A stretch of DNA of 64,000 nt from Serratia nevei (lineage in GTDB: Bacteria; Pseudomonadota; Gammaproteobacteria; Enterobacterales; Enterobacteriaceae), in the NCBI RefSeq assembly GCF_037948395.1, contig NZ_CP149940.1, positions 2,790,001-2,854,000 on the forward strand, in the 5' to 3' direction. The stretch's first letter is position 1, and the number at the start of each line of letters is the position of its first letter. Made by a program: the position numbers and the translations under genes. The notes beneath the pieces were generated by a model. It was not told the origin of the DNA and did not search any database. It saw nothing but the letters and a program-made list of their open reading frames with translations. Shown one piece after another: positions 33,413 to 35,285 of the stretch.

Positions 33413-33907
33413 TTAAGCTACACCCCCATCGCGTACAAACACGGTCAAAACATCCTGTGGCGCTTTGACAGCACTTTCAGTAATCAGCCATCCCACCGCA
33501 CCACGGTGGTAGCAGCCATGGTGTTCAACGTGCGCCAACATTTCCCGTCGCAGCATATCCCCAGGGCCGCCGTCGACGAAGGTAAAATGAATGCGCTCAT
33601 CCAGTTGCGCTTCGCTCAGCGAAGCGATATACGCGAGGTAGCGACGATCGCTGGCCAACATCGCCTCTTCCAGCGCTTCCAACGTTGGGGTTTCTTGGGT
33701 GTTCAACGCCGTATAGCCATGGCGTTGTCCTTGCAAATTGGCGATAAAAATCTGATCGACGACATAGATATGATTCATCAAGCGAAGCATCAAATGACGC
33801 TGCTTAGGCCAAGCATCGGCGTCCACTTTTCGAATGGCGGCGAAGGCCTCCGCATCCGCCCATTGCTTATAATTGAACAGTTGCTCCAAGTGCTTTTTCA
33901 ATGACAT
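33413..33907 (-). CDS. DinB/YfiT-family putative metal-dependent protein
   Basis: 164 residues with the four-helix DinB fold pattern: an N-terminal YKQWADAEAFAAI helix, a conserved His in LMNHIYVVDQIF (about residue 45), and the C-terminal HVEHHGCYHRGAVGWLI with two or three candidate metal-binding His. Family members include DNA-damage-inducible DinB proteins of Gram-positive bacteria and thiol-S-transferases (bacillithiol or mycothiol dependent); the role here is unknown. It lies, with the next two genes, where E. coli has yciQ, so it belongs to an inserted segment. It is 63 bases after the dioxygenase-like gene in the same direction, so they could be co-transcribed. Confidence 0.75.
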   Translation of the reverse strand: MSLKKHLEQLFNYKQWADAEAFAAIRKVDADAWPKQRHLMLRLMNHIYVVDQIFIANLQGQRHGYTALNTQETPTLEALEEAMLASDRRYLAYIASLSEAQLDERIHFTFVDGGPGDMLRREMLAHVEHHGCYHRGAVGWLITESAVKAPQDVLTVFVRDGGVA

Positions 33908-33970: not shown

Positions 33971-34777
33971 TTATTTTAGGGCGATGGACAAAAAATCCTC
34001 CACCGCCCACAGCACCGCGTCGGGCCGTTCCAGAATGCCGAGGTGAGTACGAGCCTCCCCTAACCGTACCACGGAGAAAAACGGCTGCTCGGCGGCAAAT
34101 GCCTGCTGCTGCCGCAGATAGTCGTCGCGGCGATCCAACGAGTAAATATGCCGGCACGGCGGCGGCGCGCTCATTCCCGCCAGGCGTTGCAGCGGCGAGC
34201 CGAATTGCCGGTAGGCCTGTTCGATGGCCACACCGGCGGCACGCCAGAGCCGGTAATCTTCCTGCGCCATCTCGACCTCCAGATGGCGTTTGACCCGATC
34301 GTGGCGGATGCCGCCCTGCCAGAAGTCGAACAAGGCGTCGCGCGCCGCCAGCCACTGCTGCGGCTGCTGCATACGGCTCACCGCCGTAAAGAACGCCGGC
34401 TCCGGCTGCGTCATGATCCAGTCGAGAAACACCATGCCCCGTACCCGCTGCGGCAATGCTTCGGCCAGCGCCACCGCCAGCCAGCTGGCGTGCGCCACCG
34501 ACAGGGTGCTCACGTTGTCCAAACGCAGCGCCGTCAGCAGCTGACGCACATCTTCCAGCAAATCGTCCGCCGCCAGCGACATCCCCGCCGCTTTTGACGA
34601 CAGGCCGTGGCCGCGCCAATCGATGCTGATCACCCGATAGCGCTCGGCCGCCAAGGCGATAAACGGTTCGAATACGGTTTTCGGTTCGCACCAGCCGGGC
34701 AGCAACACCAGTGTGAGCGGCCCTGAGCCGATATCCTGATAGTCGAGCATCATGTTGGCGCTGTGAAATGCGGTCAT
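33971..34777 (-). CDS. Alpha/beta-hydrolase-fold protein resembling cofactor-free quinolone dioxygenases (HOD/QDO/AqdC)
   Basis: 268 residues, alpha/beta-hydrolase fold. It looks specifically like 1H-3-hydroxy-4-oxoquinaldine 2,4-dioxygenase (HOD), a cofactor-independent dioxygenase: LLPGWC (W29 = HOD W36), WRGHGLS, FLDWIMTQPEPAF (D119 = HOD D126), the GSPLQRL region and ARTHLGIL (H245 = HOD H251). Those residues and the catalytic His/Asp dyad are kept. The nucleophile elbow is VAHASW, so the family Ser (HOD S101) is Ala95, and there is no GxSxG serine. An ordinary esterase is therefore unlikely. Homology to HOD is from memory. The substrate, possibly a 4-quinolone such as an alkylquinolone signal, is inference. 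Confidence 0.7.
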   Translation of the reverse strand: MTAFHSANMMLDYQDIGSGPLTLVLLPGWCEPKTVFEPFIALAAERYRVISIDWRGHGLSSKAAGMSLAADDLLEDVRQLLTALRLDNVSTLSVAHASWLAVALAEALPQRVRGMVFLDWIMTQPEPAFFTAVSRMQQPQQWLAARDALFDFWQGGIRHDRVKRHLEVEMAQEDYRLWRAAGVAIEQAYRQFGSPLQRLAGMSAPPPCRHIYSLDRRDDYLRQQQAFAAEQPFFSVVRLGEARTHLGILERPDAVLWAVEDFLSIALK

Positions 34778-34925: not shown

Positions 34926-35285
34926 TTAATGGCGGACGCAGGGATAGGCGGCGCTTAACGCCAGCATGATCACCGACGGTGCGGAATAATGCAGCTGCTC
35001 AGGATGCTCGTTCAAATATTGCATCACCGCGTCGGCGGCTACGCCGATGCTCATCCCGGCTTCGGGGCAAATATTGCGATTGCCCTGCATGGAGTAGGTA
35101 TCGAATACGCCGGCGACGTATCCCATGAACATGCCGCCATTCAGCGCTTCGGCCACGGTGGCTTCACCGCTTTTATTTTTTACGTAACCGCCGGATTCCG
35201 CCAGCAAACCGCTGCCCGAATAAAACCCCGCATTTGCCATTGAGGAAAATAATAAGGCCGCTAAAAAAGAAACCTGTTTAATCAT
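34926..35285 (-). CDS. Rap1a/Tai-family periplasmic protein (T6SS immunity-like)
   Basis: 119 residues. Signal peptide ending about residue 19 (SSMANA|GF). The mature part has the Rap1a-family pattern: GSGLLAE..., FMGYVAGVFDTY, a Cys in NICPEAG (C73), ADAVMQYLNEHPEQLHYSAPS and a final Cys in AAYPC (C116), which would form the family disulphide. Rap1a and relatives in Serratia are immunity proteins against type VI amidase effectors. No effector gene is adjacent, so this is an orphan. The family also has non-T6SS members, so function is uncertain. Single-gene unit, 115 bp from yciO. Confidence 0.7.
   Translation of the reverse strand: MIKQVSFLAALLFSSMANAGFYSGSGLLAESGGYVKNKSGEATVAEALNGGMFMGYVAGVFDTYSMQGNRNICPEAGMSIGVAADAVMQYLNEHPEQLHYSAPSVIMLALSAAYPCVRH

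Follow-up and report, generated by a model that had tools for sequence, protein, structure and literature searches.

HOD of Arthrobacter sp. Rue61a (MeqE), QDO of Pseudomonas putida 33/1 (3ibt) and the Pseudomonas quinolone signal (PQS) dioxygenases AqdC of Mycobacteroides abscessus and AqdC2 of Rhodococcus erythropolis are quinolone dioxygenases of the 3-hydroxy-4(1H)-quinolone 2,4-dioxygenase (HQD) type. In HOD, His251 is the base and Asp126 its modulator, according to the available part of PMC3961685. The available part of PMC10548524 states that AqdC, which cleaves PQS, naturally has Ala at the position of HOD Ser101, and that the S101A variant of HOD retains its kcat while KM rises 60-fold; the elbow residue is discussed there as tuning O2 versus water. 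The gene studied here lies in a 64,000-nucleotide stretch of Serratia nevei DNA (contig NZ_CP149940.1), which is called the window, and encodes a HOD-like protein with Ala95 at the position of HOD Ser101. The window protein is probably a cofactor-free, His/Asp base-catalysed oxygenase that would work like HOD, and its substrate is probably not PQS.

Reading of the translation confirmed the residues W29, A95, D119 and H245 that a preliminary description of this DNA had named. In the alignment, HOD residues W36, S101, H102, W105, D126, W160 and H251 correspond to W29, A95, H96, W99, D119, W153 and H245. The predicted model (mean predicted local distance difference test score, pLDDT, of 95.2) shows an alpha/beta-hydrolase fold with a helical cap. 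HOD, AqdC and QDO are the nearest proteins both by sequence and by predicted fold, HOD and AqdC are the closest solved relatives, and esterases are far behind. The proposed relationship to HOD and QDO, with a conserved His/Asp dyad, is thus supported by sequence and predicted fold, and the closest characterised homologues are dioxygenases. NCBIfam returned no HQD model for the window protein, and none for HOD, AqdC2 or the Nocardia protein introduced below either.

The phylogenetic tree contained 74 rows, comprising a 63-row alignment (A2), seven reference rows and four further homologous proteins as outgroup, and the Ser/Ala counts given below cover these rows. A2 holds the window protein, 35 of 59 homologous proteins and 27 of 60 loci, all hand-chosen for spread. 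The 60 loci were found by two patterns, LPGWC and an elbow with HA(G/S)W; such a search is biased towards the sister branch described here and passes over relatives that have other motifs. The 70 family rows separated from the four generic hydrolases (support 100/100). HOD, AqdC, AqdC2 and a Nocardia farcinica protein (strain NCTC11134, presumed the same as the HQD characterised from strain IFM 10152) formed one group (98/82), and QDO paired with a second, QDO-like Serratia protein (100/98). The other 64 rows, including the window protein, formed one branch (98/94) with HOD, AqdC, AqdC2, the Nocardia protein and QDO outside it; these five are the characterised or presumed HQDs among the references, and some of the nine enzymes reportedly validated by Wullich et al. 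(2020) may fall inside the branch. Support is weak (95/56) for the fork by which the QDO pair comes nearer than HOD to the 64-row branch; the outgroup rows are long-branched, and the HOD and QDO branches are fairly long. Within the 64 rows, 19 rows including the window protein form an enterobacterial clade (100/100), and the large branch to which this clade belongs is, by the tree, sister to the characterised quinolone dioxygenases. Named relatives with 33–38% identity include proteins of cyanobacteria, myxobacteria, acidobacteria, actinobacteria and Candidatus Nitrosocaldus.

The elbow motif of the window protein is LSVAHASWL (SVAHASW around A95). In the predicted model A95 is the apex of the elbow, where strand 89–94 meets helix 95–107. 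Two serines lie close by, but a displaced nucleophile at S93 or S98 is ruled out, because these residues align with HOD S99 and G104 and the model has A95 at the apex. No other Ser occupies the nucleophile position; A95 fills it, and the protein is without a nucleophile. An ordinary esterase or lipase is suggested by the generic Pfam matches (Abhydrolase_1 and Abhydrolase_6) and by public names of homologues such as "alpha/beta hydrolase" and "pimeloyl-ACP methyl ester carboxylesterase". This reading is ruled out, with practically no probability left to it, since the elbow has no Ser, Cys or Asp as nucleophile, all 19 clade members have Ala there with no displaced Ser, and a wide gap separates esterases in both sequence and fold scores.

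The Ala elbow itself is already known in working members of the family. The preliminary description regarded it as compatible with cofactor-free oxygenation, which is supported by the natural Ala of AqdC and by HOD S101A (PMC10548524, available in part). A search for the same variant among homologues found Ala in 43 of the 70 family rows and Ser in 27 (31 of 74 with the outgroup, in which Ala is unchanged at 43). AqdC, AqdC2 and the Nocardia protein have Ala, and HOD, QDO and the QDO-like Serratia protein have Ser. Ala is present in 40 of the 64 sister-branch rows, and at least nine Ser/Ala changes were counted on the 70-row family tree, which was built without that column. A novel or window-specific mutation is thereby ruled out, as Ala occurs throughout the clade and in three of the six HQD-type rows, namely the five characterised or presumed HQDs plus the QDO-like Serratia protein. 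The preliminary interpretation held for the family and for the dispensable serine, whereas its substrate proposal was weak and the Ala elbow was not new.

The HQD subfamily was reportedly defined by Wullich et al. in 2020 (Applied and Environmental Microbiology) through an H-x(2)-W motif at the elbow and an HFP-x(4)-P motif at the catalytic His. The first motif is present in the window protein (H96-A-S-W99), H96 and W99 being invariant in A2, and D119 provides the dyad acid expected of an HQD at the position of HOD D126. The second motif is replaced by HLGILERP and occurs in none of the 19 clade rows, whereas its F and P are kept in all six HQD-type rows. The enterobacterial clade thus has H-x(2)-W and lacks HFP-x(4)-P, a motif that many other branch rows would contain: at HOD positions 252–253, 34 of the other 45 rows have Phe at 252 and 44 have Pro at 253, and Phe-Pro is found in all six HQD-type rows. 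Every clade row combines the Ala elbow with Lys at HOD position 40, Val at 100, Ser at 104 and Leu-(Gly/Ala) at 252–253. Position 40 is Arg in all of the other 45 branch rows, giving Lys or Arg in 64 of 64, and is His (four) or Leu (two) in the HQD-type rows. The residues of the window protein at HOD positions 103, 104, 252 and 253 (Ala, Ser, Leu and Gly) are found in none of the six.

The window protein and HOD share the fold, the dyad and GWC in the oxyanion loop. Of the HOD ligand contacts, taken from the available part of PMC10548524 and mapped through the alignment, seven of ten in the cap are unchanged (F136, L156, W160, M177, W185, G189 and I192), as are four of nine in the core (G35, W36, C37 and H102). 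AqdC and AqdC2, to which the protein is about 30% identical, have HDL, AHAHGGW and HFP where the window protein has EPK, SVAHASW and HLG. QDO differs by its Ser elbow, HFP and His at HOD position 40. QDO is likewise without H38 and H100 of HOD, so changes at these two positions alone do not exclude quinolone cleavage. A true 2-alkyl-3-hydroxy-4-quinolone 2,4-dioxygenase that cleaves PQS-type signals, with a function in quorum quenching, would agree with this last point, with HOD and AqdC as the closest solved relatives, with the retained H-x(2)-W, dyad, W153 and W178, and with an AqdB-like flavin adenine dinucleotide (FAD) oxidoreductase encoded elsewhere on the chromosome (27% identity, E 2.9e-17). 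It is nevertheless quite improbable, because the window protein falls outside the characterised HQDs in the tree, the whole clade has HL(G/A) in place of the HFP of all HQD-type rows, position 40 is Lys/Arg, and AqdA has only a partial match in the genome (E 5.9e-5). A quinolone signal is a possible substrate, but the less likely one, and the earlier proposal of alkylquinolone signals is unsupported by the tree, the lost HFP and the distant AqdA and AqdB matches.

In the proposed mechanism, a soluble alpha/beta-hydrolase-fold enzyme would hold an aromatic or heteroaromatic substrate under the helical cap. The His245/Asp119 dyad would act as general base and deprotonate an acidic hydroxyl (or enol) of the substrate. 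O2, placed around the oxyanion hole and close to Trp29 and Ala95, would then react directly with the substrate anion, with no metal and no cofactor, and Lys33 (or Arg) may pair with a negatively charged substrate group. The changed residues in the oxyanion loop, at the elbow and after the catalytic His point to a different substrate. The data establish the homology, the predicted fold, the conserved dyad, Trp29, H-x(2)-W and most cap residues, the purifying selection described below and the lack of a nucleophile; we infer that the protein is an oxygenase at all and that its substrate would be another, perhaps anionic, aromatic compound instead of PQS.

The same dyad could also work without O2 in a base-catalysed lyase, decarboxylase or isomerase, like methylketone synthase and hydroxynitrile lyases, which have this fold. 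Methylketone synthase has no canonical triad and uses a conserved His as base (PMC10548524, available in part). Loss of the nucleophile and the altered core pocket fit such an enzyme equally well, but it is an unlikely explanation, as oxygenases are the nearest proteins by structure, with everything else far behind, and the protein retains the Trp of the oxyanion loop and most of the cap pocket. RsbQ and D14 are proteins in which the alpha/beta-hydrolase fold serves in signalling, and both appear among the lower rows of the structure comparison. Together with the missing nucleophile they would speak for a ligand-binding pseudoenzyme or sensor. This is very unlikely given the strong purifying selection in Serratia described below and the conservation of the dyad, with D119 and H245 invariant in a 20-row alignment (A1) and, in A2, H245 invariant and D119 nearly so.

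Of 30 Serratia genomes, 24 match the window protein at E 1e-20 or better, 21 of them near full length. In an order-wide sample, three of 394 genomes match at 1e-25, including the window's own. Among named homologues, one from a Serratia marcescens record comes closest (98% identity), and other named relatives belong to Photorhabdus, Rahnella, Ewingella and Erwinia, with copies also on Pantoea and Rahnella plasmids. Twenty Serratia orthologues are open across the matched 263–264 codons, and the ratio of nonsynonymous to synonymous substitution rates (dN/dS) against the window gene is 0.039–0.165 for 18 of them (two of other length were left out). The gene is therefore not a chance open reading frame. 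It is under purifying selection at a fixed Serratia site where it is kept, yet it is dispensable. No Serratia enzyme of this kind was found in the literature searched, judged by titles and abstract openings. One paper met in that search, PMC3534580, mentions Serratia for iron transport in its available part.

Several observations weigh against a HOD-like oxygenase. Neither homology nor fold is proof of oxygenase chemistry. Five of the nine HOD core contacts are altered (H38 to E, H100 to V, S101 to A, G103 to A and F252 to L). The dyad Asp is not invariant in the wider branch, being Glu in one locus (L068) and Ser in another (L092). Three of the 30 Serratia genomes (G003, G014 and G022) have only partial matches and six have none; the partial copies represent decay of a dispensable gene. 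Finally, no partner gene is common to the clade, the neighbourhoods in Serratia, in Photorhabdus and in Rahnella, Erwinia, Pantoea and Ewingella being different.

Table 1. Features of the window gene and its neighbours (positions in the window).
Feature	Position	Strand	Remark
HOD-like alpha/beta-hydrolase-fold protein, open reading frame	33971..34777	-	268 aa
Trp29 codon	34691..34693	-	HOD W36, oxyanion-hole loop; from alignment
Lys33 codon	34679..34681	-	HOD H40; from alignment
Ala95 codon	34493..34495	-	Nucleophile-elbow position, HOD S101
His96 codon	34490..34492	-	HOD H102; starts the H-x2-W motif of the elbow
Asp119 codon	34421..34423	-	Acid of the His/Asp dyad, HOD D126
His245 codon	34043..34045	-	Expected catalytic base, HOD H251
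HLGILERP segment	34022..34045	-	HFPxxxxP there in compared HQD-type rows
DinB-family gene	33413-33907	-	Pfam DinB 7e-18; between window gene and rluB
Rap1a-immunity-family protein	34926-35285	-	Pfam 3.9e-20; adjoins window gene; matched in 34 Serratia loci

The gene order in Serratia is rluB, the window gene, a Rap1a-like gene and yciO, where the names rluB and yciO are assigned from reading the sequences. In the window a DinB gene lies between rluB and the window gene, and the surrounding genes closely resemble those in Serratia records. In a search of 34 Serratia loci, of which some come from identical or nearly identical genomes, DinB was matched beside the gene in one (L028) besides the window, and a DinB-hydrolase operon is ruled out. 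The last residues of the window protein differ from those of locus L007 at the junction. Partial copies of the window gene occur at the same site in several Serratia loci, L027, L028, L029 and L054 (G014, G022, G003 and S. nevei). The trp genes (anthranilate) are near, which we take to be inherited enterobacterial gene order.

The Photorhabdus homologue is followed downstream by genes for a holin, an endolysin and an Rz-like spanin (families read from L049), and a YycE-like glyoxalase-superfamily gene lies near it in L050. An ABM-domain gene is beside the homologue in two (L037 and L052) of five Rahnella loci, of which L089, similar to L037, was left unscanned. In cyanobacteria, a glyoxalase-superfamily gene is upstream in six of eight loci (L069, L070, L072, L073, L077 and L079, with an extra open reading frame between in L073), five of which also have a divergent MarR-type regulator (Pfam from one representative). 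This arrangement is possibly a small inducible operon.

The aqdC2 gene adjoins FAD oxidoreductase and carboxylesterase genes, and the window gene does not. In the window's genome, AqdB and AqdA have only distant matches, both away from the window gene; the best AqdB match is the FAD oxidoreductase mentioned above (G000:C1:2424730-2426249), which directly adjoins another alpha/beta hydrolase. An alkylquinolone catabolic operon at the window gene was rejected on the 27% identity of the AqdB match, the partial AqdA match and the location of both, and neighbourhood and partner matches argue against such an operon. That the gene stands alone on the chromosome suggests a minor role in detoxification or degradation and not an essential pathway.

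The QDO-like protein is encoded by a second, separate gene in three of the 30 Serratia genomes (L030, L031 and L032 in G006, G008 and G007), and this gene was not found in the window's genome. The L032 protein matches 3ibt at 3.3e-75 and has a Ser elbow and the HFP motif. Within Serratia, the QDO-like protein is a stronger candidate for an HQD than the window protein. Its gene adjoins an amidohydrolase-like gene, named by reading its sequence, and the L031 copy is broken by a stop.

The Ala elbow alone adds little, and the remaining interest lies in the sister branch. It is possible, if somewhat doubtful, that its members make up a second, widespread line of cofactor-free oxygenases with the alpha/beta-hydrolase fold, attacking an anionic, non-quinolone aromatic. 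The branch as found here spans Enterobacterales, cyanobacteria, myxobacteria, acidobacteria, actinobacteria and Candidatus Nitrosocaldus archaea. Its hallmarks would be the strict Lys/Arg in the oxyanion loop and an elbow toggling between Ser and Ala, and the Serratia protein would be part of the enterobacterial clade in it that is all-Ala and has lost HFP. Source names of its members are mostly hydrolase or esterase, with one source naming a Photorhabdus member "Dioxygenase", yet in 40 of the 64 rows compared the nucleophile that a hydrolase requires is replaced by Ala, and for this the branch could matter. The repeated Ser/Ala switches are natural pairs for probing the role of the elbow residue, and a substrate for any branch member would reveal whether enzymes of this fold carry out cofactor-free oxygenation beyond quinolones.
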